Assembly (NCBI RefSeq): GCF_004340785.1
Contig: NZ_SLXS01000001.1
Location: forward strand, 496,001 to 560,000
DNA: 64,000 nucleotides
Direction: 5' to 3'
Origin: Tumebacillus sp. BK434
Lineage (GTDB): Bacteria; Bacillota; Bacilli; Tumebacillales; Tumebacillaceae
Shown: piece by piece, positions 21,001-54,119 of the stretch
How the letters are laid out: every line of letters begins with the position of its first letter
Position numbering within the stretch: position 1 is the first letter of the stretch
Notes under the pieces: generated by a model
Seen by the model: the letters and a program-made list of their open reading frames with translations, nothing else
The model's database searches: none
Told to the model about the DNA's origin: nothing
Program-made: the position numbers and the translations under genes

Positions 21001-21477
21001 GCGATCTACAGGCTCGTTTGGCGGCTTGTATGATTTGCTATCTGACGAAGTTGGTGCGATAGACGGGGCCATGTCGTTACAGCAACTGGTCGATTTGATC
21101 CACGACAAGTCGCAAAAGCAGAGAAAAAGCTTTCGGCTCACATTCAGCGTCAACTCCAACAGTGGATTCCTTCTCTGCCCAATTACATTACATCAGGGCT
21201 TATCTGCCTATTTCATGCTGCGAAAGTTGAGTTACGAATAGTATGAAGGGATTGTGTTGTTTTCCTGAAAAGGAAATATTTTATTTTTCAGAAAGATACT
21301 TGTAGAAAATCACGATTTTGTATATAATAAATCGATTGTAAAATATAAATAATATATATTTTATAACATTGTTTATCTGATGAATTTCATTTGTGAATAT
21401 TTATTTAAATCAAGGGCGGATTCTGATCGCATAGCAAGTCGGAGAAAGTACGTTTCCAAGAAGGGAGCAGTCACAAA
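21001..21477 (+). other. Spacer upstream of the large plus-strand NRPS
   Basis: Bases 21001-21240 contain a short open frame but nothing I recognise. Bases 21241-21477 are strikingly AT-rich and include a good promoter (21300-21328) and the ribosome binding site for the NRPS at 21478. The change in composition here coincides with the entry into the AT-richer NRPS gene. Confidence 0.6.
21300..21328 (+). promoter_or_regulatory. SigA-type promoter of the plus-strand NRPS/PKS operon
   Basis: TTGTAG (21300-21305), 17 bp, then a perfect TATAAT (21323-21328) lies about 150 bp upstream of the NRPS start in AT-rich DNA. The long leader up to 21478 could carry regulation, but I see no defined structure in it. 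Confidence 0.6.
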
Positions 21478-30400: not shown

Positions 30401-33400
30401 AAGCGGATCGTAAGCGGTTGCCGTCCAATCTGGACGATGCCTACCCACCGACCCAACTGCAATTGGGAATGTTGTTCCACAGTGAAAAAGAAGCTCAGCA
30501 AGCCATTTATCACAATGTGTCACTTCATCACCTGCGCGCACCATTTCAGCAAGATGCGATGGAGCAAGCGTTAGCGGTACTGGTGTCTCGTCACCCAATT
30601 TTGCGTACTTCGTTTGCCTTGACTGGTTACAGCGAACCATTGCAATTGGTACATCGTCATGTGGTCATTCCATTTGAAGTATACGATCTGCGTGATCTGC
30701 CAGCAGGTGAACGAGAACAAGCGCTGGATCGTTGGTTCGATGCAGAAGTGAAACGTCCGTTTGATTGGGATTGTCCGCCGATGCTTCGTGTCAGTATGCA
30801 TCGCATCGATGAGGAGACGTTCCAATTTGGTTTGACGGAGCATCACGCAATTTTGGATGGATGGTCGGTTGCTTCGTTGCTCACTGAAATTTTTGTAACC
30901 TACATGTCTTTGGTAAAAGGTGAAACACCGCATTCAGAAGCTCTGCAGTCGCAGTTCCACAAGTACGTCAAATTGGAACAGACTGCGCTAGGATCTGAAG
31001 AAACAAAAGCCTATTGGCAGCAAACGTTACAAGGCTTCACGTTTACCCAACTTCCGCGAATCGAAGGAAGAGATCGCACGAAGCCATCGCGGATGCATTT
31101 GACTCGAGTCGAAGTGCCGAGCGAGGTCTCGCATGGCTTAAAACGGCTGGCTCAGCAGGCGAATGTACCACTTAAGAGCGTTCTTTTGGCTGCACACCTT
31201 CGCGTGTTGAACGTGTTGGGGGCTCAATCGGATGTGTTGACCGGTATTGTCACCAACGGTCGGATCGAGGAAGTGGATGGAGAGCGAGTGCTCGGCTTGT
31301 TTTTGAACACGTTGCCATTGCGACTGGAATTAGCAGGGGGGACTTGGCGGGAACTGGTGCAAACGGTATTTGCCACCGAGCGTGACCTGTTGCCACACCG
31401 TCGTTATCCAATGGCGCAAATTCAGCAGGATTTAGGTGGGCAACAGTTGTTCGAGACTGCGTTTAACTACACGCATTTCCACGTTTATGAAGCGCTGTCG
31501 GGCATTCCAGAAGTGGAAATTCTCGGTGAGAGATCGATTGCGGATTCGAGTTTTGTGTTTGCCGTTGAGTTCGGATTGGATTCACAAAATGCGGAAGTGC
31601 AACTGTATCTGCGTTGGAATGAAGCGGAATTGACTCCTGAGCAGGCAGCGAGGTTCGGATCCTACTACCAGAACGTATTGGAACAGATCGCTTCGAACCC
31701 ATCGGGTCGCTACGAAATCCACTCGGTCCTGTCGGCGGATGAGCAGCATCAAATTCTGGTGGAATGGAATGAAACTTCGGTTGAATATCCGAAAGTTGAA
31801 CTCTTACACCATCTGTTTGAACAACAGGTGGAAAGGGCGCCTGATGATCTGGCCGTTTCGTTTGCGGGCTGTGAGGGCCTGACGTATCGCCAACTGAATG
31901 AGCGGAGCAATCGCCTCGCACACCGTCTGCAAAAGCAGGGTGTCGGACCGAATGTACTGGTCGGTGTCTGCATGGAACGCTCTTTGGAAATGGTGATCAG
32001 TCTCTATGCAATCTTGAAAGCGGGTGGCGCGTATTTGCCGCTGGACCCGTTCCTGCCAGCAGAGCGACTAGCTTTCATGTTAGAAGAGGCACAAGTCGCT
32101 GTCTTGTTGAGCCAATCGCATTTGCATGACAAACTGCCAGCATCAAGCGCAGAAGTGATGCACCTTGATCTGGAAGCCACATGGGCGAAGTTAGCCGATG
32201 AGCGTGTTGACAATCTTGTGACTGCAACGACGTCGAAGGATACCGCTTATGTGATTTACACATCGGGATCAACAGGAAAGCCCAAAGGCGTCATGGTACC
32301 ACATCGAGGGATCATCAACCGCCTGTTATGGATGCAAGAGGAATACAAACTCACCACTGCGGACCGGGTGTTGCAGAAAACACCATTTACGTTTGACGTT
32401 TCAGTATGGGAATTCTTCTGGCCGTTGTTCCTTGGAGCACGTCTGATTGTGGCGAAACCAGAAGGTCATAAAGACAGCGCGTATCTGGTTGAACTGATTC
32501 GAGAACAGGGGATCACAACCGTGCATTTCGTACCTTCCATGTTACAGATCTTCGTGGAAGAATCGCAGGTTCAGACTTGCACGTCGCTGCGCCTCGTATT
32601 CTGCAGTGGTGAAGCGCTGCCGTTCGAACTGCAAGAACGTTTCTTTGAAATCAGTCAGGCGCAACTTCACAATCTCTATGGACCTACAGAAGCTTCCGTC
32701 GATGTCACCTACTGGGCTTGTGAACCAAACAGTGACCGCCAATTCGTGCCAATCGGTCGACCGGTTGCCAACACCAACTTGTACATCCTGGATCCGTTCC
32801 TGCAACCAGTGCCGGCAGGTGTGGCCGGTGAACTGCATATTAGCGGTATTCAGGTAGCAAATGGATATTACAAACGTCCGGAACTGACGGCCGAGAGGTT
32901 TATCGCAGATCCTTTCTCCGCGATGCCGGGGGTGTCGATGTATAAGACAGGCGACTTGGTAAAATGGCTGCCAGACGGAACGATTCATTATTTGGGTCGC
33001 ATCGACAACCAAGTGAAGATCCGCGGTTTGCGTATCGAATTGGGTGAGATCGAAGCGGCGCTGGGCAGTTGTTCCGGCGTGCGGGAAGCAGTTGTCACCG
33101 TTTGGGAGGTTGTACCGGGTGATCAGCGTCTCGTCGCGTATTTGACAGCAGAGGAGCAAGCAACTGTAACAGACCTGGAATTGCGTGAACAGGTAAAAGC
33201 GCAATTGCCAGACTACATGGTACCGTCGGTCTTTTTCTGGCTGGAAGCAATGCCTCTGTCGCCAAATGGCAAGGTCGACCGCCGTGCTTTGCCGGCACCT
33301 GACTCGAATCTCATCCCGGCGATGAACGAGTATGAGCCACCACGCAATGAAATGGAGGTGTTGTTGGCTCGTATTTGGCAACAAGTCTTGTGTAGAGAAG

Positions 33401-33714
33401 GTGTCGGCCGGAACGATCACTTCTTTGAACTCGGTGGTCACTCTCTGCTGGCGATGCAGGTCCTTTATAAGCTGCGGGAGATCTACAGCCTGCCGCTCCC
33501 GATCGGCTTGATGTTTGAAAAACCGACTCCGGCGCTGCTCGCCGCCGAAGTGGAACGGCGCATCGCAGAGTCGGCCCGGCAAGTCGAACAACCGATGAAG
33601 CGGCAGACAGACGGGGAAAACGCGCTACGGCTGCTCGAGGAGCTGGAGTTAACGGATGAAGAGGTGGAGCTGCTGCTCCAACAAGCGTTACTGGAAGCGG
33701 AGGATGCACAATGA
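21478..33714 (+). CDS. Four-module NRPS, (truncated C)-A-PCP-C-A-PCP-C-A(Thr)-PCP-C-A(Ser)-PCP
   Basis: 4,078 aa; the start ATG follows AAGGGAG. Residues 1-245 are only the C-terminal half of a C domain with no HHxxxDG. A1 (core TSGSTG ~414) reads DVW-T-IG-A-VV; its PCP has GAHSL (~795). C2 HHIIVDG (~986). A2 (~1466) DAW-L-IG-A-VC; A1 and A2 look like recent duplicates. PCP2 GGHSLL (~1846). C3 HHIISDG (~2040). A3 (~2517) DFW-N-IG-M-VH, the canonical threonine code. PCP3 GGDSIL (~2916). C4 HHAILDGW (~3121), of the YPPTQLQLGM class. A4 (~3594) DVW-H-FS-L-VD, a serine code. PCP4 GGHSLL (~3984), then an acidic helical tail (TDEEVELLLQQALLEAEDAQ) suited to docking. Codon use is visibly AT-richer than in neighbouring NRPS genes until the final PCP. 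The gene overlaps the next by ATGA. Confidence 0.96.
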   Translation: MSDKLQSTAQVTEQLIYWQQKLGGDVVRQQLQTDFPRTNDNLENGKMLSYELTPNLLDSLSRYCMDACVDRSLLFMTTFFILLHRLTDHDVVWIGTRIRLSHGADERGENDVVLRTDLGGNLSFCESLSRVRDTWEQASCHGDVTIEQIKELLPSAGAQGGDPLFQFMYRYHSNDWVNNEKFTIDLALHVVEHGDTLKLYWQYNGNLFEESTIKGFAERYCNLLRDYVNNPQAKMSEISILTTDERRLLFDEWVRTSEKYPADKCYHQLFEEQAARTPDAIAVEFNGQQLTYRELDERSNRLAHYLRGKGVKLETLVGLCVDRSLELIVGVLGILKAGGAYIPLDPSYPVDRLSFMLADTTAPVLIMQEQWIGRVPTQGIEVVRIDGDWDLIAKESGERLAHQSTIDNAAYVIYTSGSTGRPKGVIVTHAGLGNLMTEQVAHFELGLGFRVLQFNSISFDVFVWELTASLLTGATLCLTDRETLLGPNFADLLDEKQITTVTVPPTFLSMHEPKEMKYLRHLIVGGEACSKNLVQRWGRGQKFFNAYGPTETTVVSNLYQCSVEEETNPAIGRPFRNVEGYVLDKYMQPVPIGVPGELYIGGVGISRGYLNRPELTQERYLEHPFSEQPGKRVYRTGDLVRWRKDGEIEYIGRIDNQVKVRGHRIELGEVEAVLGDCPGVKEAVVIVREDQLDDQRLVAYFTVDEQVDDVMKIRHWLKGKLPAYMMPSAFVCLDAFPLNPNGKIEKSLLPTPNVAQKVEWETGKFRDSLEEGIAKIWCEILQVQQVSAEDNIFDLGAHSLTLTRVASRVKERFQIEVPIGMLFNAPTVPELADVVRAAVKSEKVESLFARRGESAPLSFAQERLWFLDQYLEDPSIYNEQFAFCLEGTLNRAALEKSLNEIIRRHDVLRTTFANVDGVAIQVVAPELHLVLNEVDFQACSSTDVLAEVERFTQSECARAFDLKQGPLVRGFLIQYAETGHFLVLILHHIIVDGWSLGLLVEELKALYPAFVHHQVSPLPELAIQYSDFAAWQREWMQGDALQQQLDYWKQQLSGELPVLLLPTDHPRPNLQTYRGGQQKIQLPVALGQALQELSRREGVTLFMTLLAAFKVLLHRYTGQHDLLVGSPIANRNRREIEELIGFFVNTLVLRTDLSEPLRFRELLHRVRAVTIEAYAHQDVPFEKLVEEVSPDRSLAYTPLFQIMFVLQNASGDGLGQFQMDDLQMQAYEFDRGMTMFDLTMQVHEWSDRLHVSIEYNRDLFEGATIKRMLEHFQQVLESAVREPDQQVVQLPLLSPAERNQLFQEWNCEVVDYPAKTFQELFESQVELRPDAVAIEYTDGQMTYRELDVQSNQLARYLRGQGVGVETLVGLSFDRSPSMIVGVLGILKAGGAYVPLDPNYPTDRLAYMIEDSQVSVLVTEEKWLPSLPTFSARTILLDADWEQIAEQSTEPLPHETQLDHAAYVIYTSGSTGRPKGVVVTHSGIGNLMTEHKRSFGVQAGDRVLQFSSISFDAFVWELVMTLLTGATLYLTDRESLLGAGFVDMLREKKITAALLPPSFLAMQTPQELPDLRNLIVGGEACTQDLVKRWGEGRNFFNAYGPTESTVCATLYVCNPQEESHPPIGKPIMNSQVYVLDQHLQPVPVGVPGELYLGGVGLARGYLHQPELTAERFISHPFSEEPEARLYKTGDLVRWDKAGVIEYLGRTDNQVKIRGHRIELEEIEAALSLYEGIRHAVVTVREDGDKRLVAYVTGEVTAHEVRQWLKEQMPEYMIPSPIVVLEAMPLSPNGKVDRQALPVPVLELEMATHEEYVPPVTDLEITVSEIWAKVLNVAQISRNHNFFALGGHSLLATQVVSRLLEVLNWSIPVRLLFEADTLAAFCIKCEQQHREAALSTLPVLQAVESREKLPLSFAQQSLWFIDQFLSDRFVYNMPVLYQLTGMLDASVLECALNEIVRRHEILRTVFVEVDGIAKQVILPELDLNMTCTDLSDITDPEQRQEQLKQVLATGVLHEFDLRHAPLLAVSLVKIGEDEHVLLLNMHHIISDGWSIGVLLEELHVLYEAFSQGRPSPLVQLEVQYADFAVWQREWLQGNIKDEQMTYWKQKLGGVLPILQLPTDHLRPTEQTYRGSRETIMLSKEITEGLKAIGTREGVTLYMTLLAAFKTWLFRYTGEEDILVGSPVANRKFPELEKLIGYFINTLVLRTELSGDLTFNELLGRIRETVLEAYTYQDVPFEQLVDELSPERSTGYSPLFQVMFVLQNAHGDLQQIGHVKIRSLPVEMDIAKFDLTLSMREQEGGLAAEFEYNSDMFDRETILRWARHFEALLVGVTANPNAELSRLPLLLEAEMQEKLTQGEGQWQEFERDLCIHQWFEAQVVQTPDAEAVVMNDQRLTYREVNEQANRLAHYLLSFGVGPEVKVGISFDRSIEIVIAILGTLKAGGAYVPLDPNYPQDRVKYVLEDAQVAVLLTQEHLLDNLPEHQVPVICLDRDADVIGRHESDNLPCEANADSLAYVIYTSGSTGKPKGVLIPHGNVIRLFKATEHWYGFHERDIWTLFHSYAFDFSVWEIWGALLYGGKVVVVPYWVSRSPEDFLDLLVSERVTVLNQTPSAFRQLIQAEERKGDAAQPLALRYVIFGGEALELQSLKSWFERHGDERPTLLNMYGITETTVHVTYRPIRWVDVVRGTGSVIGAPIPDLQVFVLDQYLQPVPIGVCGEMYVGGAGVARGYLNRPELTNERFIQHPFSSDPDARLYKTGDLARYLADGDLEYLGRIDHQVKVRGFRIELGEIESSLVEHPHVHEAVVLVREDTDGEKRLIGYLVTDVDQQLTPRELREYLLQRLPEFMIPAAFVILKSLPLTANGKVDHRALPSPEENGPEQMRTYTAPRNEAEEKLAGILTKVLKVERIGIQDNYFELGGDSILSIQVLAEARKQGIQFTLQDLFRHQSIYELTESGVLGLVDREMEKQTPFSLITEADRKRLPSNLDDAYPPTQLQLGMLFHSEKEAQQAIYHNVSLHHLRAPFQQDAMEQALAVLVSRHPILRTSFALTGYSEPLQLVHRHVVIPFEVYDLRDLPAGEREQALDRWFDAEVKRPFDWDCPPMLRVSMHRIDEETFQFGLTEHHAILDGWSVASLLTEIFVTYMSLVKGETPHSEALQSQFHKYVKLEQTALGSEETKAYWQQTLQGFTFTQLPRIEGRDRTKPSRMHLTRVEVPSEVSHGLKRLAQQANVPLKSVLLAAHLRVLNVLGAQSDVLTGIVTNGRIEEVDGERVLGLFLNTLPLRLELAGGTWRELVQTVFATERDLLPHRRYPMAQIQQDLGGQQLFETAFNYTHFHVYEALSGIPEVEILGERSIADSSFVFAVEFGLDSQNAEVQLYLRWNEAELTPEQAARFGSYYQNVLEQIASNPSGRYEIHSVLSADEQHQILVEWNETSVEYPKVELLHHLFEQQVERAPDDLAVSFAGCEGLTYRQLNERSNRLAHRLQKQGVGPNVLVGVCMERSLEMVISLYAILKAGGAYLPLDPFLPAERLAFMLEEAQVAVLLSQSHLHDKLPASSAEVMHLDLEATWAKLADERVDNLVTATTSKDTAYVIYTSGSTGKPKGVMVPHRGIINRLLWMQEEYKLTTADRVLQKTPFTFDVSVWEFFWPLFLGARLIVAKPEGHKDSAYLVELIREQGITTVHFVPSMLQIFVEESQVQTCTSLRLVFCSGEALPFELQERFFEISQAQLHNLYGPTEASVDVTYWACEPNSDRQFVPIGRPVANTNLYILDPFLQPVPAGVAGELHISGIQVANGYYKRPELTAERFIADPFSAMPGVSMYKTGDLVKWLPDGTIHYLGRIDNQVKIRGLRIELGEIEAALGSCSGVREAVVTVWEVVPGDQRLVAYLTAEEQATVTDLELREQVKAQLPDYMVPSVFFWLEAMPLSPNGKVDRRALPAPDSNLIPAMNEYEPPRNEMEVLLARIWQQVLCREGVGRNDHFFELGGHSLLAMQVLYKLREIYSLPLPIGLMFEKPTPALLAAEVERRIAESARQVEQPMKRQTDGENALRLLEELELTDEEVELLLQQALLEAEDAQ

Positions 33715-36700
33715 GTTCGAACATCAAACAACTGGATCAAATGACGCCGGAAGAAAAGAGAGCGATGCTGGCACAGTTGATGCAAAAGAAAAACGGCGAT
33801 GTGAAAACCGCCCCGGTCTCTTTTGCTCAACAGCGCTTGTGGTTTGTCGAGCAGCTGTACCAAGGCAGCCCGATGAACAACGTTCCGCTGGTGCTCCGCC
33901 TGCGCGGCTTCCTCGATCTGGAGGCGTTGGAATGGTCGTTGCATGAAATTGTGAAGAGGCAGGCGGTGTTCCGCACCACGTTTGCTGCCGTCGAAGGTCG
34001 GCCCGTCCAGCGGATTCATCCGCCCAAACCGTTTGCCCTGCCGCTGATCGACTTGAGGGGTCTGCCCGAGGGGGAGCGGGAGGCGGAAGCGGAGCGACTG
34101 ATGACCGAAGAGGCGGCGCGCACCTTCGACCTCGGCCGCGACCTGCTGTTGCGCGCTGCGGTCATTCGTGTGGAGGACGAGGAGCACCGGCTGATGCTGA
34201 CCATGCATCACATCGCCACTGACGGCTGGTCGCGCGGGGTGCTGTTGAAGGAACTGATCCACTTTTACCGGGCCAGAACGCAAGGGGTAGAGGTGCAGTT
34301 GCCGGAGCTTGAGGTCGGCTACGTCGATTATGCGGTCTGGCAGCGCGATCATTTAAAAGACGAGTACCTGCACGGCCTGCTCGGGTATTGGAAGGATCAT
34401 CTCGCCGGTGCTCCGGCCCTGCTCGACCTGCCGCTCGACCGCCCCCGTCCCGGCAAAGAGAGCTTTGCCGGCGGTCAGGTGCGGATGCAGGGTTCTGCCG
34501 ACCTCCTGCAGCGGCTGAAGGAGCTGAGCCGCAGGGAAGAAGCAACGCTGTTCATGACGCTGCTCGCAGCCTACTACACGCTGCTCTGCCGCTACAACCG
34601 GCAGGAGAGCATCGTGATCGGCACACCGGTCGCCAACCGCACCCGACATGAGCAAGAAGGGCTGATCGGCTTTTTTGTCAACATGCTGCCGCTGCACCTC
34701 GATCTGTCGGGCGACCCGACCTTTTGCGAGCTGTTGCAGCGCATGAAAAAGGCGGCGCTCGGTGCGTTTGCGCATCAAGACCTTCCGTTTGAGCGGCTGG
34801 TCGACGAGCTGGATGTCGAGCGCAGCCTGAACCAGTCTCCGCTGTTTCAGACCACGTTCACGCTGCAAAACGCGCCGTCCACAGCACTGGAACTGCCCGG
34901 CTTGGTGCTGGACGTGTTCGAGCAGACCAACGGCACCGCCAAATTTGACCTCTCTCTGTTTCTGTGGGAAGCGGACGGGGGACTGGCCGGCGGATTTGAA
35001 TACAAGACCGACCTGTTTGAGGAGGGCACGGTCGAGCGGTTGTCCCGTCATTATATGACGCTGTTGGAAAGCATCGTCAACGCGCCGGACAGCAGAATCT
35101 CGGAGCTTCCGATCATGTCGGCACAAGAGCGAGCGCACCTGGTGCAGTTGGGTGAAACGGAGACGGTATCGGCGCGCGACGAGCTGCTGCATCAACTGTT
35201 TGAAGAGCAGGTGCTGCGCACCCCCGATCATCCGGCACTCGTGTTCGAAGGCCGGACGATGTCCTACCGCGAGCTGAACGAACGGGCGAACCGAGTGGCT
35301 CATCACCTCAAAGCGCAGGGGCTGGGCCGCGGTCAACTGGCCGCCATCTTCATGGAACGCTCTTTTGAGATGGTGGTAGCGGTGTTCGGCGTGTTGAAAT
35401 CGGGCGCGGCGTATCTTCCTCTCGATCCCGATTACCCGGCGGAGCGTCTGCAGTTCATGCTGGATGACTCCGCAGCCCGCTTTGTGTTGACGATGGAAAG
35501 GCTGGCCGGGAACATACCTGCAAACCGCGCCAATTTGCTCTGTCTGGACCGCGACTGGGCGGAGATTGCCCGCTCGAACGCCGACAATCCCCAGGGTGGG
35601 GCGCTGCCTTCCGATCCGGCGTACGTCATTTACACGTCGGGCTCCACCGGCCGTCCAAAAGGTGTCGTCACTGCGCATCGGGGCATCTGCAACACGATCC
35701 GCTGGTACCATGATGATTTCCCGATGACGACGGAGGATGCACAGGTGCTGAAGTCGCCGTTTAGCTTCGACGCTTCTGTGACGGAGTTTTTCGTTCCGCT
35801 GTCTTTAGGCGCGCGCATCGTCATCGCCCGTCAAGGCGCGCATCGCGACCCCGGCTATCTGGCCGGCTTGATGGCTCATGAGCGGGTGACGGTGGTACAG
35901 GTGGTGCCGACCCAGTTGCAAGTGCTGCTCGATGAGCCGCGATTTGCCGAGTGCGTGCACCTGCGTCAGGTCTACTGCGGGGCGGAGCTGTTGACAACCA
36001 GCCTGCTGGAGCGGTTTCATGCCGCATCGAAAGCCGATTTGATCAACATGTACGGGCCGACTGAAGTATCGGTCGAATGCACCTATTGGCTTTGCGAGCG
36101 CGGCGATGGGCGCCACGCCATCCCGATCGGACGTCCGATTCCGCGCATGCAGCTCTACGTGTTGGATGAGCGCATGGAACCTGTGCCGATGGGAGCGGTC
36201 GGCGAGATTTACATCGGTGGGATCGGGGTTGGTCTCGGCTATCTAAACCGGCCGGAAATGACGGCGGAGCGCTTCCTGCATAGTCCTTTTGCCGCCGCCG
36301 GAAGCGGGGAGCGGCTCTACAAGACGGGCGACTTGGCGCGCTGGAATGCGGAAGGGGCGCTGGAGATCATCGGTCGCGCCGACCATCAGGTGAAAATTCG
36401 CGGGCACCGCGTCGAATTGAGCGAGATTGAAAATCTGGTCCATGAGGCGGACGGCGTGCGCAACGCGGTCGCTCTGGCGAGGGAAGTGGAAGGCGACACG
36501 AGGCTGATCGTCTATATCACGCTCGACAAGAGCATCGCCAATCCGTTCGAAGCAGAAGCGCCGGGCAGAGAGACGCCGGCTCGCCAATTTGCTTTGTCCC
36601 TGCAGCAGCGTTTCAAAGAGCTGCTCCCAGCCTTTATGGTTCCTTCCGCGGTGATCCCACTCGAGGAGATGCCGCTGTTGCCGAGCGGAAAAATCAACCA

Positions 36701-37100
36701 TAAGCTGCTGCCGGAACCGAAGATCGAGCGCAACACGCACATTGAATTTGTCGTGCCGCAAAGCGAATCGGAGGTCTTGATCGCCGCGATCTGGCGTGAA
36801 GTGTTGAAGGTTGACAAGGTGGGCCTGCATGATAACTTTTTTGATCTGGGCGGGCATTCCCTGTTGGTGATCCAAGTGCACACCAAGCTGTGCCGAGAAT
36901 TGAACAGGGACATCGCGCTGGTCGAGATGTTTCAGCACCCGACCGTCTATGCGCTGGCCAAACTGCTGAGCGCTCCGGAAAATCACGACAGCCGTGACAG
37001 CCTGTCCATGCAACAGGCGGAACTGGCGGCGGAAGCGCGGAGCGACGCGATGCAGCGGCGCAAAGATGCCCGGCAGCAACGCCGCGATGCCAGACAATAA
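33711..37100 (+). CDS. Single-module NRPS, C-A-PCP
   Basis: 1,129 aa, translationally coupled to the preceding NRPS through an ATGA overlap. A short N-terminal helix (TPEEKRAMLAQLMQKK) looks like a docking segment. The C domain has MHHIATDGWS (~166). The A domain (TSGSTG ~642) reads DAT-Q-YG-M-VE, which matches no substrate I know. PCP GGHSLL lies near 1048. The C-terminus is a highly basic, Arg/Gln-rich helix (RRKDARQQRRDARQ). It should add one amino acid between the four-module NRPS and the PKS that starts 12 bp downstream. The basic tail is a candidate docking partner for the PKS. Confidence 0.94.
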   Translation: MSSNIKQLDQMTPEEKRAMLAQLMQKKNGDVKTAPVSFAQQRLWFVEQLYQGSPMNNVPLVLRLRGFLDLEALEWSLHEIVKRQAVFRTTFAAVEGRPVQRIHPPKPFALPLIDLRGLPEGEREAEAERLMTEEAARTFDLGRDLLLRAAVIRVEDEEHRLMLTMHHIATDGWSRGVLLKELIHFYRARTQGVEVQLPELEVGYVDYAVWQRDHLKDEYLHGLLGYWKDHLAGAPALLDLPLDRPRPGKESFAGGQVRMQGSADLLQRLKELSRREEATLFMTLLAAYYTLLCRYNRQESIVIGTPVANRTRHEQEGLIGFFVNMLPLHLDLSGDPTFCELLQRMKKAALGAFAHQDLPFERLVDELDVERSLNQSPLFQTTFTLQNAPSTALELPGLVLDVFEQTNGTAKFDLSLFLWEADGGLAGGFEYKTDLFEEGTVERLSRHYMTLLESIVNAPDSRISELPIMSAQERAHLVQLGETETVSARDELLHQLFEEQVLRTPDHPALVFEGRTMSYRELNERANRVAHHLKAQGLGRGQLAAIFMERSFEMVVAVFGVLKSGAAYLPLDPDYPAERLQFMLDDSAARFVLTMERLAGNIPANRANLLCLDRDWAEIARSNADNPQGGALPSDPAYVIYTSGSTGRPKGVVTAHRGICNTIRWYHDDFPMTTEDAQVLKSPFSFDASVTEFFVPLSLGARIVIARQGAHRDPGYLAGLMAHERVTVVQVVPTQLQVLLDEPRFAECVHLRQVYCGAELLTTSLLERFHAASKADLINMYGPTEVSVECTYWLCERGDGRHAIPIGRPIPRMQLYVLDERMEPVPMGAVGEIYIGGIGVGLGYLNRPEMTAERFLHSPFAAAGSGERLYKTGDLARWNAEGALEIIGRADHQVKIRGHRVELSEIENLVHEADGVRNAVALAREVEGDTRLIVYITLDKSIANPFEAEAPGRETPARQFALSLQQRFKELLPAFMVPSAVIPLEEMPLLPSGKINHKLLPEPKIERNTHIEFVVPQSESEVLIAAIWREVLKVDKVGLHDNFFDLGGHSLLVIQVHTKLCRELNRDIALVEMFQHPTVYALAKLLSAPENHDSRDSLSMQQAELAAEARSDAMQRRKDARQQRRDARQ

Positions 37101-37112
37101 GGAGGAGCCGGT

Positions 37113-40043
37113 ATGAATCAGTTTCATGGCCATGAGATTGCTGTCATCGGGATGACCGGACGGTTTCCCAGAGCGAAAGACATCGAACAATTTTGGGACA
37201 ATTTAAAACACGGCAATGAATCGATCTCTTTTTTTAGCAGAGAAGAGTTGCTGGCTGCCGGCATCGCGGCGGAGCAAGTCGACGATCCGAACTACGTGCC
37301 CGCCAAAGGGATGGTCGACGGCGCGGACATGTTTGACGCCGCTTTTTTCGGGTTCTCCAAGCGGGAGGCGGAAGTGACCGACCCGCAGCAGCGCCTGTTT
37401 CTGGAATGCTCGCATGAGGCGTTGGAACATGCCGGGTACGACCCGGAGCAGTACAGAGGCCGCATCGGCGTCTATGGCGGTTCCAACCTGAGCACTTATC
37501 TGTACTTTAACCTGTTTCCGAACCAAGAGATCATCAATGCGGTAGGTCTGACCAGCGTGGTGATGGGCAATGACAAAGACCACCTGGCCACCCGTGTTTC
37601 CTATAAGCTCAATCTGACCGGCCCCAGCGTCTCCGTGCAGACAGCCTGTTCGACGTCGCTGGTGGCGATACATACGGCTTGTCAGGCGATCATCAGCGGC
37701 GAGTGCGACATCGCCTTGGCGGGCGGCGTCTCCATCGGTGTGCCGCAGATTTCCGGCTATCAGTACCAGGAAGGCTCGATCGCGTCCCCTGATGGGCATT
37801 GCCGGGCCTTCGATGCCCGTTCGGGGGGCACCGTGAGCAGCAGCGGCGTCGGGGTCGTGGTGCTAAAGCTGCTCGAAGACGCGCTGGCCGACGGCGACAC
37901 GATCCACGCTGTGATCCGCGGTTCGGCGATCAACAACGACGGTGCCAATAAAATTGGCTACACCGCCCCCAGCCCGGAAGGCCAGGCTGCGGCGATCAGC
38001 GAAGCGATGGCGGTGGCCAAAGTGCCAGCCGACTCGATCTCCTACGTCGAAGCGCACGGCACCGCCACCAACCTCGGCGATCCGATTGAAATCCTCGGCC
38101 TGACCAAAGCGTTCCGCACCCGGACAGAAGCCAAAGGATTTTGCGCGATCGGTTCGGTCAAGACGAACGTCGGGCATCTCGATGCGGCGGCCGGCGTGAC
38201 CGGGCTGATCAAGACGGTGCTGTCGCTCAAGCATCAAATGCTGCCGCCGTCCCTTCATTTTGAGTTGCCAAACCCGAAGATCGATTTTGTCAACAGCCCG
38301 TTTTACGTAAATGACAAACTGTGTCCGTGGCTGAGCGAAAAAGGGCCGCGTCGAGCTGGTGTCAGTTCCTTTGGAATGGGAGGCACCAACGCGCATGCGA
38401 TCCTCGAAGAGGCGCCGGCAAGCGTTCCCTCAGGCTCTTCGCGCGGTCTGCAGCTCCTGATGCTGTCGGCGAAGACGGGCACAGCGCTGGAAGCGGTGAC
38501 CGAACGCCTGCTCCGGCACTTCGAACAGCACCCGCAAGTCTCGCTGGCCGATACCGCCTACACGCTGCAGGTGGGGCGCGCCTCTCACCCTTTTCGACGT
38601 CTCGTGCTCTGCCGCGATGTCGAAGAGGCCAAGCGAATGCTCCGCGATCGCCCTTCCGAACGCGTCATGAATGGTGTGGCCGATACGGCGCGCCGTCCGG
38701 TGGTGCTTCTGTTCTCAGGCAGCGGTGCTGAAGAGCTGCGGCGCACAGCACAGGAGCTGTATGCGTCCGAAGCGGCGTTTCGCCAACAGCTCGACAGGCT
38801 GCGGGAGGTATTCCTTGCTGTGACCGGACAGAACCTTGATCTCGCGCTGTCCGCCTCGCAACAGCAGACGGAGGACGCCGTCTTGTTCGTTCTCGAATAC
38901 GCGCTGGCGAAGCTCTGGCTGGACTGGGGGCTGCAGCCGGAAGCGCTGATCGGGCACGGCGTAGGCAGCTTTGTCTCGGCGGCTCTGGCACAAGTGTTGA
39001 CCGTACAGGATGCCTTGGTTTTGGTGACAGAACGGGCGCGGCTGCTCGGAGCGCTGCCGCAGGCGGCCGCGCTGGAAGTGCCGCTTTCGGCAGCCGAACT
39101 GACGCCGGTGCTCGGCAGTGAGTTGTCGGTGGTCGAAGAGGCGGGCCCGCACCGCACGATCATCGCCGGCCCGCAAGCGGCAATCGAGGAATTTCAGCGC
39201 GATCTGGCCGACTTCAATGTCAGCTGCACGGTGGTCACCGCACGCTTTACGCTTCCATCCACCATTACGGAAGCGACAGTCGGCGCTTTTTTGGAAAAAT
39301 TGCAGATGGTGCGCCTGCACGAGCCACAGTTGCCTGTGCTGTGCTCGACGATGCGTGACTGGTTGAGCGTGGAGCAGGCGACCGATGCCCGCTTCTGGGC
39401 GGAGCAGCTGCGAACCCCCGTGTCGTTCGCTGACGGTTTGCAGGCCTGGGCTAAGAAATCGGCGCATCTCTACCTGGAAATCGGCACGGCGGGCTTCCTT
39501 GGCGAGCAGGTCCGTAGCATGCTGCCGGCCGAGCAGGTCGGTGCTCTCTGGACGAATGTCCGCGTTGTGGATGCGCCATGGACAGCGGCCGAGCACCTGC
39601 AGGTGATCTGGGGCGAGATCTGGCTGCAAGGCGGCGAGGTCGACGGCACGGGTTACCACAGAGGGGAAGCGCGCCGCCGAATTCCACTGCCAACCTACCC
39701 GTTCGAACGCCAGTCCTACTGGGTTGAGCAAAACGTGCAGCCGTTCACGGCAGGCGTCAGCGCGAAAAGAACGGACGAGGAAGTGCTTTTGGACACAGAC
39801 AATGAGATCGAGCTGAACATTGCGAAAATCTGGTCGGAGTTGCTCGGCATCAAGCAAGTGACGGTAGATGACGACTTCTACCAACTGGGCGGAGACTCGC
39901 TCTTGTCGATCCAGATGATCGCAAGGATTAAAAAACTGTACCCGGTCGAACTCGACATGCGGCAGTTAGTCGAAGCGACGACGATCGGCGAATATGCCGA
40001 AATTGTGGAATTGGCCCTCATCGAAGAACTCGAGCGGCTTTAA
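37113..40043 (+). CDS. PKS module KS-AT(inactive)-ACP
   Basis: 976 aa, with GGAGGAG before the ATG. The KS is intact: Cys179 in TACSTSL, His315 in EAHGTAT and His355 in NVGHL. The AT region (~530-830) has the right length and ends in an LPTYPF linker, but the nucleophile motif reads GHGVGS. Gly616 (codon GGC) replaces the Ser that AGC would give. The HAFHS region is replaced by ARFTLPS, and the usual FPGQG is FSGSG. The AT therefore looks dead. The ACP (LGGDSLL ~926) is normal. No KR, DH or ER is present, so an unreduced beta-keto extension is expected if an extender is loaded. Loading would have to come from another AT, for example the intact one at 50946. Confidence 0.93.
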   Translation: MNQFHGHEIAVIGMTGRFPRAKDIEQFWDNLKHGNESISFFSREELLAAGIAAEQVDDPNYVPAKGMVDGADMFDAAFFGFSKREAEVTDPQQRLFLECSHEALEHAGYDPEQYRGRIGVYGGSNLSTYLYFNLFPNQEIINAVGLTSVVMGNDKDHLATRVSYKLNLTGPSVSVQTACSTSLVAIHTACQAIISGECDIALAGGVSIGVPQISGYQYQEGSIASPDGHCRAFDARSGGTVSSSGVGVVVLKLLEDALADGDTIHAVIRGSAINNDGANKIGYTAPSPEGQAAAISEAMAVAKVPADSISYVEAHGTATNLGDPIEILGLTKAFRTRTEAKGFCAIGSVKTNVGHLDAAAGVTGLIKTVLSLKHQMLPPSLHFELPNPKIDFVNSPFYVNDKLCPWLSEKGPRRAGVSSFGMGGTNAHAILEEAPASVPSGSSRGLQLLMLSAKTGTALEAVTERLLRHFEQHPQVSLADTAYTLQVGRASHPFRRLVLCRDVEEAKRMLRDRPSERVMNGVADTARRPVVLLFSGSGAEELRRTAQELYASEAAFRQQLDRLREVFLAVTGQNLDLALSASQQQTEDAVLFVLEYALAKLWLDWGLQPEALIGHGVGSFVSAALAQVLTVQDALVLVTERARLLGALPQAAALEVPLSAAELTPVLGSELSVVEEAGPHRTIIAGPQAAIEEFQRDLADFNVSCTVVTARFTLPSTITEATVGAFLEKLQMVRLHEPQLPVLCSTMRDWLSVEQATDARFWAEQLRTPVSFADGLQAWAKKSAHLYLEIGTAGFLGEQVRSMLPAEQVGALWTNVRVVDAPWTAAEHLQVIWGEIWLQGGEVDGTGYHRGEARRRIPLPTYPFERQSYWVEQNVQPFTAGVSAKRTDEEVLLDTDNEIELNIAKIWSELLGIKQVTVDDDFYQLGGDSLLSIQMIARIKKLYPVELDMRQLVEATTIGEYAEIVELALIEELERL

Positions 40044-40071
40044 CAACGGAGAGAGAGGAGGAGGTTCTTAT

Positions 40072-43000
40072 ATGTCTGCCAATCGTTTAAAAGATCGCCT
40101 GTCGAGTCTGACCCCGGAAAAAAGAGCACTCCTTGAACAGCTGAAAAAAGGCGGCTTCCAAGAGACTTCGGAGAGTGACGTCATCCGTCCCCGCGACGAG
40201 CAGGGTCAGGCTCCGCTTTCCTTTGCCCAGCAGCGGCTGTGGTTTCTCGACAAGCTGTTGCCCAATCGCAGCGCCTACAACATTCCAGGCGGCATCCGGC
40301 TGAAAGGCAACGTCAAAATAGAAGCATTGGGAAAAAGTTTCGAAGAGATCCTCCGTCGCCATGAAGTGCTGCGCACCCGCTATGCGACTGTGAACGATAT
40401 GCCGGTGCAGATCATCGAACCCGCAGGTCCCTATCATCTCGAAGTGGTTGATGTGCGCGAATTGCAGGGCGCGGCCCGGGATGCGGAGATCGACCGCTTG
40501 TATCAGGCGGTCAACAAAGGAGTTTTCTCGCTGGAAGAAAGCCCGTTTCTGCGCGCCCAACTGATTCAAACGGCCGACGATGAATATGTGCTGGCACTTT
40601 GTGTGCACCACATCGCTTTCGACGGCTGGTCGTCCGGTCTGCTGTTCAAAGAGCTGGCCGCTTTGTACCACAGCAATGTCCACGGGCTGCAGTCCACACT
40701 GCCGGAGCTGTCGATCCAATATGCCGATTATGCGCTTTGGCAGCGCAAGTGGCTGCAAGGAAAAGTGCTGCAGAACCAGCTCTCCTACTGGAAAGAGCAG
40801 TTTCAAGGCGCGCCGACACTGTTGCCGCTGCCGACCAATTTTCCTCGCCCGGCGGTGCAGTCCTACCAAGGGACGAGAACTTCGCTCGTGCTGCCATCGG
40901 AAATGGCGGTGCGGGTGAATGAGCTGTCCAAGCAGCTTGGGGTCACCCCGTTCATGACCTGGCTCTCCGTCCTCTACACGCTGTTGATGCGCTACAGTGG
41001 AGAGCAGGACATCATCATCGGCACACCGATCGCCGGTCGCAACCGCATCGAGCTGGAAAACTTGATCGGCTTTTTCGCTAATACGCTGGCGCTGCGCATC
41101 AACCCTGCCGAAGCGGTCAGCTTTGCTGATTTGCTGCGCCACGTGCGCACAGTTGCGCAAGGTGCTTACTCACATCAAGATCTGCCGTTTGACCGCCTGG
41201 TAGAAGAGCTGCAGCCGGACCGCGACCTCAGCCATCATCCGCTGTTCCAGGTCATGTTCGCGTACCACAACTATGAAAATCCGGATCTGGTGCTGGAAGA
41301 TGTCGTGCTGACGCCGACCGAGATCGACAGCAACACGACCAAATTCGACCTGTGGTTCTCCATGACTGAACACGCGGACGGCGTGTTCATCACGTTAGAA
41401 TACAACACCGACATCTTCGAGGCGGAGACGATCGAGCGTCTGAAAGGCCATTTCCAAGTGCTGGCCGAAGCCGCCCTGCAACAGCCGGAACGGCCGATTG
41501 CCAATCTTGAGCTGCTCACCGATGCGGAGCGTAAGCAACTGCTCGTCGAGTGGAACCGTACCGCCGTGGAGTACCCGCGCTTCGACAGCCTGCATCAGCT
41601 GGTCGAAGAGCAGGTCGAGCGAACGCCCGACGCCATCGCCTGTGTGTTCGAAGGCCGCGAGCTGACCTATCGCGAACTGAACACCCAAGCGAACCGACTG
41701 GCTCATCATCTTCGCTCGCTGCAGGTAACGGCCGACACGGTGGTCGGGATCTGTGCCGAGCGCTCCTTGGAAATGGTGATCGGGCTGGTAGCGGTCTTGA
41801 AAGCGGGCGGCGCGTATCTGCCGCTTGATCCGGGCTATCCGCAAGAGCGTCTTGCCTTCATGATCGAAGACGCCAACCTGAACATCATGCTCACCCAACA
41901 GCATCTGGCGGATGAACTGCCGCAGCATGACGCGCACGTCATCCACCTCGACGAACTTGACACCTTGCTCGCCGGACAAAGCGGGCAGAACCTGCCAAAC
42001 ATCGTCGCTCCGGACAATCTAGCCTATGTGATCTATACGTCCGGCTCAACCGGCAAGCCGAAAGGGGTGATGGTGTCGCATCGCGGTGTGATCAACCGCC
42101 TGCAGTGGATGCAGGCCGAGTATCGCCTCGATCAAAAGGACGCCGTCTTGCAAAAAACGCCGTTCAGCTTTGACGTTTCGGTCTGGGAGTTCTTCTGGCC
42201 GCTGATCACGGGCGCCAAACTGGTCGTCGCTCGTCCGGACGGCCACCGGGACAGCGTGTATCTGGTGCGTTTGATCGCCGAGCAGCAGATCACGACGCTG
42301 CATTTTGTACCTTCGTTGCTTCAAGTTTTCCTCGAAGAAAAAGACCTGTCCGCCTGCAAGAGTGTCAAGCGGGTCATCTGCAGCGGGGAGGCGCTGTCTT
42401 ATGAGCTGCAAGAGCGTTTCTTCTCGCGGATGTCGGCGGAGCTGCACAATCTGTACGGCCCGACAGAAGCGTCGATCGACGTCACCTATTGGGCGTGCTG
42501 TACGGACAGCAGACGCCGCTCGGTGCCGATCGGGCGTCCTGTCGCCAACACGCAGCTCTATGTGCTGGATGAGCATCTGCAGCCGGTGCCGATCGGAGTG
42601 CCGGGTGAGCTGCACATCGGCGGCGTCCAAGTGGCGCGCGGCTACTTGAACCGCCCGGAATTGGTCGCTGAGAAATTTATTGCCGATCCGTTTTCCGGCG
42701 ACTCTGGTGCCCGTCTCTACAAGACGGGCGACCTGGCTCGCTACCTGCTGGACGGCACGATCGAATATCTTGGCCGCATCGACCATCAGGTCAAGTTGCG
42801 CGGCCTGCGCATCGAGCTCGGCGAGATCGAGGCGGTGATCGCGCAGCACGAAGCGGTGCGCGAGGCGGTGGTGATGGTGCGCGAAACTGACAAAGAGGAT
42901 CAGCGTCTGATCGCCTATGTCACGCGAAACTCCGATTATCAGGCAGCAGAGGCGCCCGTCCAGGAAAGCTCACTCAAAGCAGAGCAAGTTGCAAACTGGC

Positions 43001-46000
43001 AGCTCGTATTTGACGAGACCTACAGCCAGACGACAGGCGAGGACGAATCGGAATTCAACATGGTCGGCTGGAACAGCTCCTACACGGGCGAACCATTAAG
43101 CCGCGACGAGATGAAAGAGTTTGTCGGCAGTACCGTCAACCGGATTTTGGAACAACGGCCGCGCCGGGTGATCGAAATCGGCTGCGGTACCGGGCTGTTG
43201 CTGTTCCCGATCGCGCCGCACGTCGAGCAGTACCTTGGCACCGACTTCTCTGCTGTCGGCTTGAACTTCATCCGGCAGCGTTTGGCGCGGATGGAGTGCA
43301 CACTGCCTGTCTCCTTGGAGCAGCTTTCCGCCGACCAACTGACGGAGCTGGAAGCCGGTTCGTTCGACACGCTGGTCATCAACTCGGTCGTGCAGTACTT
43401 CCCGGGTGTCGACTATCTGCTTCGCTTCCTCGACGGCGCCATGCGCCTGATCGCCCCGGGCGGCCGTATCTTCCTCGGCGACATCCGAAGCCTCCCGCTG
43501 CTCGAAGCGTTCCATACTTCGGTTCAGCTGCAGAAAGCGGCCGATGAGATGACAGTTGAGCAGTTGCGGATGCTGGTGCAAAAAATGCTGGCCGAAGACG
43601 AGGAGCTGAACCTCGACCCGGCGTTTTTCGATGCGCTGCTTCGCGTATACCCACAGCTGTCCGGTGTGGAAGTGCTGCTCAAGCGAGGACGTCACCACAA
43701 CGAGCTGAACCAGTTCCGCTATGACGTGATTCTCCGCGTAGGTGAAGGGACACAGGCACAGGATACGCTGTGGCTGGATTGGGAGGCCGACGGCTGGAAC
43801 GTCAGCCTGCTCGAACAGGCGCTGCAGGAATCGGCGCCGGACCAATTGGGTATGCGCGGAGTCCCGAATGCCCGGCTGGAAATGGAGCGCCGGGCGCTGA
43901 CGCTGTTGCCGAGGTTCGACGGCAGCAAGACGGTCGACGAACTGCGCCGGGTGATCGACGAACAGGTGGTTCCTTCCGCTGTCGATCCGGAATCGCTGTG
44001 GCAGCTCGCCGAAGCGTGCGGCTACGGGCTTGAGATCATGCCGAATGCCGTTCAGCCTGCGGCCTTCGATGTGCGGTTCACGAAGCGGGGGAGCGCCGCG
44101 CCGCAGCTTGTTTTCGAAGCGGCCGCCACGCGGGAGCCTGCTGCTCCTGCCGATTTCCGACAGTATGCGAACAACCCGCTGCACGCCAAGATCTCCCGCC
44201 AACTGCTGCCGGAGTTAAAAGCGTATGCCAAAGGGAGGCTGCCCGACTTCATGGTGCCGACCCACTATGTGCTGCTGGAGACGCTGCCGCTTTCTTCGAA
44301 CGGCAAAGTTGACCGCAAAGCGTTGCCGATGCCGGTGCTGACGCGGTCCGATACTGCGGTTGCCTACGAAGCGCCGCGAAACGAGATCGAGCAGACGCTG
44401 GTGCAGATCTGGGAAGACGTGCTGGGGGCGGAGCAGATCGGCATTCGTCAGAACTTCTTTGAGATCGGCGGCGACTCGATCAAAAGCATTCTCGTCATCT
44501 CCCGCGCCTACCGCGCCGGTCTGGAACTGACGCCGCAACAGCTCTTCCGCAACCAGACGGTCGCCGATCTGGCCACGGAGGCCGTCGTGCTGGAACAGGC
44601 GCAGGAGTCGGTAGCGACGGAGGATACGTCGTACGACTATCCGCTGGTCAAGCTCAACCGATGTGACCTGCACGAGGCGGTCGGAGCGGAGCTGGTCATC
44701 GAGGACGTGTATCCGCTGTCGCCGATGCAGCAGCACATGTTCGAAGAGCTCCATGCCAATCCGGAGCCCGGTCTGTTCTTTGTACACCGCTTTGGCGTGA
44801 TGCAAGGGGAACTGCGGCCGGATCTGCTGGCTCAAGCCTGGCAGATCACGGTGGACCGGCATGCCCACCTGCGCTCGCAGATCGCCTGGGAAGGGCTCGA
44901 GCAGCCGGTGCAAGTGGTGGCGAAGCACGCCGAGGTCGACTTTGAATACTTGGATTGGCGCCATCTCAGCGCGGAGGAACAGGAGGCCGGGATGCAGCGC
45001 TATCTGGAAGACAAGTGGAACCAGTGCATGGACTACTTAAAGCGGCAAACCCCGTGGTCGATGCTGTTCGTTCGAATCGGGGAAGACATGTACCGCGGAG
45101 TCTGGAGCAACTCCTACTTGTTCATGGACGGCTGGAGCTACACGATCCTGAACAACGAGGCGTTTAACAACTACAGCGCGCTGTGCGCAGGCAAGCCGAC
45201 CGAAGTATCGGAGGGGCGCCCCTACCTCGAATACGCCGTTTGGCGCATGAATCGCGACCTGACCCCGGCCCAAGCGTACTGGGTGGAACATCTCAACGGC
45301 TACACCGAGCCGGTGCCGTTTGCGGAAAGCATCCCGGGCAACCGGATCGGCAGCGAGGAAGGGTTCGGCCGTCAACAGCAGTTCCTGTCGCTTGCGACCA
45401 CTGAGCAGTTGCACCGTATGGCGCGCTCGCACAAAGTGACGGTCAACGTGCTGATCCAAACGGCATGGGCGCTGTTGCAAAGCCATTACAGCGGCAACCG
45501 CGACATCGTGTACGGCGTTGTCTCATCCGGACGTCAGCCTGCTTTTGCAGGCATCGAGACGGTCGTGGGTCAGCTGATGAACATGCTGCCGCTGCGCATC
45601 GTGATCGATGAGCAGCAGTCGGTGCAGGAACTGTTGCAGCACGTGCAGGAAAGCCAGCTTACATTGTCCCAGTTCGACATTACGCCTCAGCAGAAGATTC
45701 GCGAGTGGATCAACTGGCCGCATGAACGGCGCATGTACCAAAACTTTATGGTCTTCCAAAACCTGGGCTCCTTCGCCTCCACGCTGGACGGCTTCATGAA
45801 TGACCATGAGATCTACGGCTTGTCCTCTCCGCCGCAGAAGAACGATTTCATCGCTCGCATGGAGCATCCGCTGCGCTTTGACGTGTTTATTGGAAAGCAG
45901 ATCGAACTTCACATGTCGTATTACCGCCAGTACCTGACCGATGCCACCATCACCCGCGTGATCGGCGATCTCGAAGCGATGATCGAGCGCATGACGGCCG

Positions 46001-46047
46001 ACCCGGCACAGCCGGCGGGAGAACTGCTGAGGGATGGCAACGACTAA
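40072..46047 (+). CDS. NRPS C-A(Ser)-N-methyltransferase-PCP-C(atypical terminal)
   Basis: 1,991 aa; ATG 40072 follows GAGGAGG, so the longer frame opening at 39994 is not used. An N-terminal docking-like helix precedes C1 (HHIAFDGWS ~180). The A domain (TSGSTG ~656) reads DVW-H-IS-L-ID, a serine code. An N-methyltransferase is inserted before the A10 motif, with the SAM-binding EIGCGTG near 1040. A10 NGKVDRKALP lies near 1410 and PCP GGDSIKS near 1466. The last ~430 residues are a C domain of the YPLSPMQQ class. Its HHxxxDG motif is Ser1681-Tyr1682-Leu-Phe-Met-Asp1686-Gly, so the catalytic His is lost. The protein should add N-methylserine to the polyketide-extended chain. The terminal C may bind, release or hand over the chain. 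No TE follows. Confidence 0.95.
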   Translation: MSANRLKDRLSSLTPEKRALLEQLKKGGFQETSESDVIRPRDEQGQAPLSFAQQRLWFLDKLLPNRSAYNIPGGIRLKGNVKIEALGKSFEEILRRHEVLRTRYATVNDMPVQIIEPAGPYHLEVVDVRELQGAARDAEIDRLYQAVNKGVFSLEESPFLRAQLIQTADDEYVLALCVHHIAFDGWSSGLLFKELAALYHSNVHGLQSTLPELSIQYADYALWQRKWLQGKVLQNQLSYWKEQFQGAPTLLPLPTNFPRPAVQSYQGTRTSLVLPSEMAVRVNELSKQLGVTPFMTWLSVLYTLLMRYSGEQDIIIGTPIAGRNRIELENLIGFFANTLALRINPAEAVSFADLLRHVRTVAQGAYSHQDLPFDRLVEELQPDRDLSHHPLFQVMFAYHNYENPDLVLEDVVLTPTEIDSNTTKFDLWFSMTEHADGVFITLEYNTDIFEAETIERLKGHFQVLAEAALQQPERPIANLELLTDAERKQLLVEWNRTAVEYPRFDSLHQLVEEQVERTPDAIACVFEGRELTYRELNTQANRLAHHLRSLQVTADTVVGICAERSLEMVIGLVAVLKAGGAYLPLDPGYPQERLAFMIEDANLNIMLTQQHLADELPQHDAHVIHLDELDTLLAGQSGQNLPNIVAPDNLAYVIYTSGSTGKPKGVMVSHRGVINRLQWMQAEYRLDQKDAVLQKTPFSFDVSVWEFFWPLITGAKLVVARPDGHRDSVYLVRLIAEQQITTLHFVPSLLQVFLEEKDLSACKSVKRVICSGEALSYELQERFFSRMSAELHNLYGPTEASIDVTYWACCTDSRRRSVPIGRPVANTQLYVLDEHLQPVPIGVPGELHIGGVQVARGYLNRPELVAEKFIADPFSGDSGARLYKTGDLARYLLDGTIEYLGRIDHQVKLRGLRIELGEIEAVIAQHEAVREAVVMVRETDKEDQRLIAYVTRNSDYQAAEAPVQESSLKAEQVANWQLVFDETYSQTTGEDESEFNMVGWNSSYTGEPLSRDEMKEFVGSTVNRILEQRPRRVIEIGCGTGLLLFPIAPHVEQYLGTDFSAVGLNFIRQRLARMECTLPVSLEQLSADQLTELEAGSFDTLVINSVVQYFPGVDYLLRFLDGAMRLIAPGGRIFLGDIRSLPLLEAFHTSVQLQKAADEMTVEQLRMLVQKMLAEDEELNLDPAFFDALLRVYPQLSGVEVLLKRGRHHNELNQFRYDVILRVGEGTQAQDTLWLDWEADGWNVSLLEQALQESAPDQLGMRGVPNARLEMERRALTLLPRFDGSKTVDELRRVIDEQVVPSAVDPESLWQLAEACGYGLEIMPNAVQPAAFDVRFTKRGSAAPQLVFEAAATREPAAPADFRQYANNPLHAKISRQLLPELKAYAKGRLPDFMVPTHYVLLETLPLSSNGKVDRKALPMPVLTRSDTAVAYEAPRNEIEQTLVQIWEDVLGAEQIGIRQNFFEIGGDSIKSILVISRAYRAGLELTPQQLFRNQTVADLATEAVVLEQAQESVATEDTSYDYPLVKLNRCDLHEAVGAELVIEDVYPLSPMQQHMFEELHANPEPGLFFVHRFGVMQGELRPDLLAQAWQITVDRHAHLRSQIAWEGLEQPVQVVAKHAEVDFEYLDWRHLSAEEQEAGMQRYLEDKWNQCMDYLKRQTPWSMLFVRIGEDMYRGVWSNSYLFMDGWSYTILNNEAFNNYSALCAGKPTEVSEGRPYLEYAVWRMNRDLTPAQAYWVEHLNGYTEPVPFAESIPGNRIGSEEGFGRQQQFLSLATTEQLHRMARSHKVTVNVLIQTAWALLQSHYSGNRDIVYGVVSSGRQPAFAGIETVVGQLMNMLPLRIVIDEQQSVQELLQHVQESQLTLSQFDITPQQKIREWINWPHERRMYQNFMVFQNLGSFASTLDGFMNDHEIYGLSSPPQKNDFIARMEHPLRFDVFIGKQIELHMSYYRQYLTDATITRVIGDLEAMIERMTADPAQPAGELLRDGND

Positions 46048-46190
46048 AAGAACGGGAGTAACACCTCTCGTTCAGTGCGCTGGCTTTGTATCAAAAAATG
46101 TTGGAGATCCAGTGAAGAATCTGGAAACTGCGAAACCATCAAAGCGCTGAAACGTAAAAAATAGCATTACTGGCAGGGAGTGAGAGATGG

Positions 46191-46454: not shown

Positions 46455-46458
46455 GTAT

Positions 46459-46488
46459 TCACCCATTCCACCTTGCCTACATAGGCTA
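46459..46488 (+). promoter_or_regulatory. SigK-like (mother-cell) promoter upstream of spoVK
   Basis: CACC (46460-46463) is followed 16 bp later by CATAGGCTA (46480-46488). This matches the published SigK consensus mACm-16-CATAnnnTA of Bacillus at every fixed position. It lies 24-45 bp upstream of the two possible GTG starts and just after the preceding terminator. The match to a late sporulation sigma factor fits the gene family. Confidence 0.5.
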
Positions 46489-46523
46489 TACCACATTCTC
46501 TTCAAAGCGAGGTGGAAACCAAC

Positions 46524-50828: not shown

Positions 50829-50842
50829 GCTGCAGCGGAATC

Positions 50843-50945: not shown

Positions 50946-54119
<3,174 letters not shown>

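Follow-up and report, generated by a model that had tools for sequence, protein, structure and literature searches.

The passage from built-in to borrowed acyltransferases (ATs) is an open question of PKS evolution, and the PKS module P0001 raises it at a single locus. If the AT of a module has lost its catalytic residues while the neighbouring domains have kept theirs, what loads the carrier protein, and why is the AT still there? Here, we address this question in a stretch of 64,000 nucleotides (the window, meaning the whole stretch of DNA that was analysed) and in related genomes, among them G001 and G002, both of the same genus. The features of the locus are collected in Table 1.

Table 1. 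Features of P0001 and of the assembly line around it (window positions).
Feature	Positions	Strand	Evidence
25-kb block shared with G002, 94.3% DNA identity, one colinear alignment	21012..46062	+	
NRPS P0004, four matches each for A, PCP and C; opens the assembly-line gene order of the block	21478..33714	+	
Upstream NRPS P0002, C-A-PCP	33711..37100	+	
PKS module P0001, KS - KS/AT linker - dead AT - post-AT linker - ACP, 976 aa	37113..40043	+	ORF, translation, Pfam, model (pLDDT 87, pTM 0.85)
KS domain, aa 8-430	37134..38402	+	Pfam, motif positions, KS tree
KS catalytic residues Cys179, His315 and His355, present	37647-37649, 38055-38057, 38175-38177	+	Motif positions
Full-length AT domain, aa 526-830; catalytically dead, judged by sequence	38688..39602	+	PF00698, catalytic columns
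GHGVG replacing GHSxG, aa 614-618	38952..38966	+	Gly616 codon GGC at 38958-38960
RFTLPS replacing the HAFHS region	39243..39260	+	Pro715 (39255-39257) in the catalytic-His column
Post-AT linker (LPTYPFERQSYW), retained	39603..39797	+	Translation, alignment with active ATs
ACP, GGDSL, Ser929 at 39897-39899	39798..40040	+	PF00550, motif
Downstream NRPS P0003, C-A-MT-PCP-C	40072..46047	+	Pfam, motifs, orthologue start

Catalytic losses and predicted fold of the AT

The initial annotation of this locus claimed that the AT of P0001 carries GHGVG in place of GHSxG and ARFTLPS in place of the HAFHS region, in a module whose KS and ACP active sites are intact. Both replacements are borne out: Gly616 is encoded by GGC, and the second motif lies at aa 710-716, where Pro715 occupies the column of the catalytic His. 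The interval given for the first motif, 38955-38966, opens on the His, one codon after the true start at 38952. KS Cys179, His315 and His355 and the ACP Ser929 (GGDS) are all present.

Alignment of the AT with its relatives (alignment A1) places both losses at invariant positions. Specifically, the Ser616 column holds Ser in 34/34 relatives and Gly in P0001, and the His715 column holds His in 34/34 relatives and Pro in P0001. Furthermore, position 619 is Glu in 33 of the 34 relatives and Ser in P0001, position 677 is Asn in 33 and Ala in P0001, and position 540 is Gln in 32 and Glu in P0001. Arg641, which in active ATs binds the malonyl carboxylate, is Arg in all 34 relatives and is retained. 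The domain scores 89.6 bits against PF00698 (Pfam cut-off 32.7). With its catalytic dyad and several conserved neighbouring residues gone, the AT of P0001 is, judged by sequence, dead.

In the genome that contains the window, the AT census returned 16 AT-family matches, 15 of them besides the P0001 AT. When G001 and G002 were searched as well, Ser was present in 42 of 45 AT-family loci across the three genomes, a count that leaves out L111 and two 11-bit matches, all below the family cut-off. The three loci without Ser are the P0001 AT, its G002 orthologue and L110, which is one fragment of an AT whose Ser sits on the other fragment, L107. Among the named genomes, both Ser and His were found in all 40 AT HSPs that span the site; these came from 34 of 40 loci, the remaining six having given no site-spanning HSP. 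The initial annotation explained the loss of Ser by a single change from AGC to GGC. The GGC codon stands, and AGC ancestry is one possibility, given that Ser codons vary among active ATs (TCG in 24, AGC in 14, AGT in 2 and TCT in 1 of 41).

The genome that contains the window is a draft of 32 contigs, as might befit a sequencing or assembly artefact, but the window sits within a 1.22-Mb contig and the orthologue in the single-contig G002 (93% amino-acid identity) carries the identical GGC codon and the identical His-to-Pro state, so that an artefact is already refuted for both residue losses and has practically no probability left. The initial annotation had likewise denied a sequencing error, on account of the degenerate second motif, and the G002 orthologue is the stronger evidence for the same conclusion. 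An adjacent residue differs between the two proteins, Ser716 of P0001 being Pro in the orthologue (RFTLPP). Among 398 genomes sampled from the class, no further P0001 orthologue was found beyond G002 (E 1e-260); the next best match by score after the G002 orthologue is at 48% and has Ser and His intact. In a plasmid collection, three records match over 2% of the query.

The comparison with the G002 orthologue also indicates how selection has acted on the dead domain. dN/dS is 0.12 for the KS and 0.16 for the ACP, 0.38 for the AT (aa 526-830) and 0.50 for the 65-residue post-AT stretch. Restricting the calculation to the 258 codons of the AT that Pfam matches gives 0.286 and rejects neutrality (Fisher p = 5.9e-5); by this codon-level measure, purifying selection acts on the dead AT in this pair of genomes. 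Active modular ATs from the three genomes, compared in 20 pairs of which some share a member, give 0.069-0.279; the dead AT lies above all of them, but at a dS of 0.13 versus 0.46-1.71 in these controls. This excess hints at relaxed constraint but at nothing beyond that, and the AT/KS dN/dS ratio in P0001 (2.3) falls inside the control range.

The AlphaFold model of P0001 (35 rows; overall scores in Table 1) gives pLDDT values of 71-96 across ten-residue blocks of the AT, and the nearest solved folds are KS-AT proteins, namely colibactin ClbI, CurL, Lsd14 and DEBS. Purifying selection and this confident model of a complete AT agree with the earlier suggestion that the AT fold is retained. Together, they favour a kept AT shell, while stopping short of proving a scaffold role.

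A shared assembly-line block and the candidate loaders

P0001 belongs to an assembly line with the gene order P0004, P0002, P0001, P0003. It is the sole PKS module of this line, and Pfam assigns a KS or AT to no other protein of the block. From this order, P0002 would pass its chain to the P0001 KS. The listed ORF of P0003 starts at 39994 and overlaps P0001; its G002 orthologue starts 26 residues later, and 40072 is the likelier start. The whole block aligns to G002:C1:2569423-2544377 in a comparison that covered 100 kb of G002, and similarity ends 15 bases after the stop codon of P0003. G+C content is about 50% at 20-32 kb and 56-62% elsewhere in the window, a composition shift that falls inside the block.

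Between the two genomes that carry the block, dS is 0.149 for P0001, 0.137 for P0002 and 0.116 for P0003, compared with 0.56 for an rpoB domain, 0.86 for recA and 0.93 for FabD in the same genome pair. G001 is closer to the window's genome (dS 0.26 for rpoB and 0.29 for recA), and orthologues of P0001 and P0002 are both absent from it, the best full-length match to P0001 being 51% (at most 57% over KS-only stretches) and the best match to P0002 48%. Because dS of the block is low relative to rpoB and recA and the block is missing from the nearer G001, recent horizontal movement is strongly suggested by these sequences: in the simplest reading, the block moved between lineages with its AT already dead and no working AT aboard. 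P0001, P0002 and P0003, the genes covered by the codon-level analysis, are open in both genomes with overall dN/dS of 0.17-0.26.

The surroundings of the block contain further elements. An AAA-ATPase gene at 46457-47113 comes after it, and AAA-ATPase-related stretches flank the cluster region in G002 (G002:C1:2522104-2521452 and 2570094-2569712), as if at a recombination hot spot. A separate, divergent NRPS cluster with A, C and PCP domains occupies window positions 2-19064 on the minus strand; a thioesterase match lies at the end of its 4528-aa protein, and no match of at least 400 bases at 78% was found between this cluster and 100 kb of G002. What is apparently a third cluster, at 48966-54119, consists of a PCP-C protein and a KS-AT-ACP module whose AT is intact. 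At gathering scores, Rfam matched nothing in the window.

Which enzyme could load the ACP? The window contains two ATs by the genome AT census, both within PKSs (P0001 and the PKS at 50937-54119), and neither the census nor Pfam scans of the larger surrounding ORFs found one that is discrete, whether inside the block or in the rest of the window; a loader would therefore have to be supplied from another locus of the cell. The free-standing malonyltransferases of the window's genome are a FabD of 323 aa on contig C10 and a discrete AT of 445 aa on contig C3 (positions 595785-597020), which both exceed the NCBIfam FabD cut-off; G002 also has matching proteins of equal lengths (323 aa and 445 aa). 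Since both occur in both block-carrying genomes, we infer that FabD or the 445-aa AT is the most likely loader.

Beyond P0003, G002 contains different genes: P0007 (an AMP-ligase, taken as FAAL-like, followed by three C-A-PCP modules), P0006, an MFS transporter and a discrete AT, P0005. The latter lies about 20 kb beyond P0003, beside another KS module, and looks like part of a neighbouring cluster. No close match to P0005 was found in the window's genome (the best by score has 37% identity; FabD, 42%). With the block thus present in one genome that lacks P0005, a loader common to both genomes is the economical choice.

P0006 (G002 L117:4035-10967, minus strand) consists of a KS, a shortened AT-like region, an ACP and C-A-PCP-C. 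Its AT-like remnant (L117:8733-9455, minus strand) reads GLGIGD at the nucleophile motif, with Ser absent; the region aligns to the A1 profile (hhalign 98%, E 1.6e-13), and Pfam returns no AT there at E 0.001. It represents a second dead AT of the genus, of different KS ancestry and with an intact discrete AT nearby. The last C domain of P0006 reads HQTTTDG (aa 2007), and Pfam found no thioesterase in P0006 or P0003.

Proposed loading in trans and its alternatives

The reading that we favour, and consider reasonably probable from the sequence evidence, is that another cellular enzyme malonylates the P0001 ACP in trans, while the AT persists as a scaffold. Specifically, the P0001 KS would take the peptide from the carrier domain of P0002 and condense it with malonyl carried on the ACP of P0001 itself, after FabD or the resident 445-aa malonyltransferase had placed that malonyl there in trans. 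The AT, in turn, would be kept because its fold, together with the KS-AT and post-AT linkers, holds P0001 together. Continued elongation, the identity of the loader and the scaffold role are each put forward here by inference. The lack of a discrete AT in the block and the window, unlike the situation in typical trans-AT clusters, counts against loading in trans.

That same lack of a loading enzyme in the block, along with an AT that is dead by sequence, would suit a module that elongates no more, in which the KS either hands the peptide on to the ACP or is skipped, without addition of malonyl. We consider this unlikely, given that the KS has kept the Cys and both His residues required for decarboxylative condensation and evolves at a low dN/dS of 0.12.

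Less probable again is that the entire cluster is a decaying, non-functional line, with the dead AT among its symptoms. In both genomes, SYLFMDG replaces the HHxxxDG motif in the last C domain of P0003 (window 45106-45138, aa 1705 of the listed ORF), and Pfam found no thioesterase among the block proteins; on these grounds the line could be partly decayed. Decay of the whole is at odds with three genes, P0001, P0002 and P0003, that have stayed open in both genomes under dN/dS of 0.17-0.26.

The second PKS of the window (50937-54119, KS-AT-ACP), which begins about 11 kb downstream and has an intact AT (GHSLGE), might instead donate malonyl via its own AT, for which the donor arrangement proposed for irumamycin modules M11/M12 offers a precedent (PMC11672594, as far as its account of these modules goes). 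This is improbable to a still greater degree: the gene lies outside the block, which ends at 46062, it is unmatched in the 100 kb of G002 compared, and it belongs to an orthologous pair with the block-less G001 (L012-L091, KS 91% identical).

A broader possibility, more tentative and less likely than not, is that this is a travelling line devoid of any AT activity, whose AT would be purely a scaffold and whose loading would be borrowed from the FabD or discrete AT of each host, enabling its spread between species. If this were true, the genus would hold, with the P0006 remnant, two steps of a passage from cis-AT to trans-AT systems. P0001 furthermore offers a natural test of two matters: whether loading by a housekeeping FabD is sufficient, and whether the module requires the AT fold as a scaffold. 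Additionally, substrate predictors that read the AT would return a meaningless call for this module.

Comparison with known systems

P0001 has the layout of a cis-AT module, with KS, full-length AT and ACP in a single protein, and its KS groups with those of cis-AT modules. In the KS tree, it falls in a clade of 69 of the 76 rows (support 100/93, midpoint root), the tree fixing membership of this clade and not the position within it. Sixty rows of the clade are labelled as having an AT with Ser, six as having none and three are unlabelled; these labels come from a crude motif scan, and 'noAT' is partly wrong, two L060 rows carrying GHS. A trans-AT origin of the KS was considered and is unsupported by the tree, though KSs of AT-less modules are among the PDB sequence matches of P0001, the best of which, for the whole protein, covers the KS part alone. 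In departure from the cis-AT class, the catalytic Ser-His dyad is missing (Gly616, Pro715). As in AT-less modules, the module by its sequence contains no catalytic AT, but the domain is full length and neither missing nor trimmed; and, unlike in trans-AT systems, no discrete AT is encoded with the module.

The initial annotation described P0001 as an unusual intermediate state. This is fair, although the state is not unique, a Ser-to-Gly dead AT being known from irumamycin module 12. There, the Ser of GHS is likewise replaced by Gly in the AT of a cis-AT-type module, with the whole AT retained as in P0001, and the authors, in the portion of the article concerned with this module, propose a structural role for it and consider the AT of the preceding module active (PMC11672594). 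Unlike irumamycin, where that active AT is the proposed donor, P0001 is the sole PKS module of a block without any other AT.

Loading in trans has itself been described in several forms. According to the relevant passages of the cited work, an S. coelicolor malonyl-CoA:ACP transacylase can rescue AT-null DEBS module 6, as can discrete ATs (PMC6164871), and FenF loads MycA in trans (PMC3039948). The mycosubtilin/iturin system resembles P0001 in that the PKS module lies in an NRPS-rich line; malonyl loading in trans is described there and would apply here. Its transacylase, FenF/ItuD/BmyD, is reported as the first ORF of its cluster, unlike in the P0001 block, which has no transacylase gene, and no AT is listed for MycA in the text consulted, whereas P0001 retains a full-length dead one (PMC3039948).

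Unlike AT-less modules, P0001 has a KS from a clade mostly of KSs with an active AT, and its AT is complete in length where theirs is a trimmed remnant. The non-catalytic region after the KS in AT-less modules is AT-derived. Leinamycin is named among the AT-less modules with proposed AT-docking regions, and modules of this type share with P0001 a KS followed by a non-catalytic region, with ACP loading in trans that is described for them and would hold for P0001 (PMC6164871, in its treatment of such modules).

Colibactin ClbI is the best fold match of P0001, at 39-40% identity. Two further colibactin proteins, ClbC and ClbK, are said to have degenerate ATs. The structures compared were those of ClbI, ClbC and ClbK (PDB 8xju, 8xbl and 8cjh). 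ClbG transfers aminomalonyl to ClbK, as stated in the cited excerpt (PMC10924459), and lies within the colibactin gene set, whereas the P0001 block has no discrete AT. Inactive first ATs are, furthermore, described for tandem discrete ATs in the corresponding section of PMC5764310. Within the genus, P0006 of G002 is likewise a KS module whose AT-like region has no Ser, but this region is shortened, an intact discrete AT lies close by, and its KS is only distantly related to that of P0001.

We did not encounter, in the sampled literature on inactive or trans-served ATs, the combination of a sole PKS module, a full-length dead AT and an apparently mobile block free of working ATs. Its individual parts are known, and P0001 is, as measured against the portions of these publications cited here, a variant of the published dead-AT phenomenon. 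Taken together, these comparisons make P0001 a cis-AT module by descent and probably an AT-less-like one by function, lacking a defining feature of each class.
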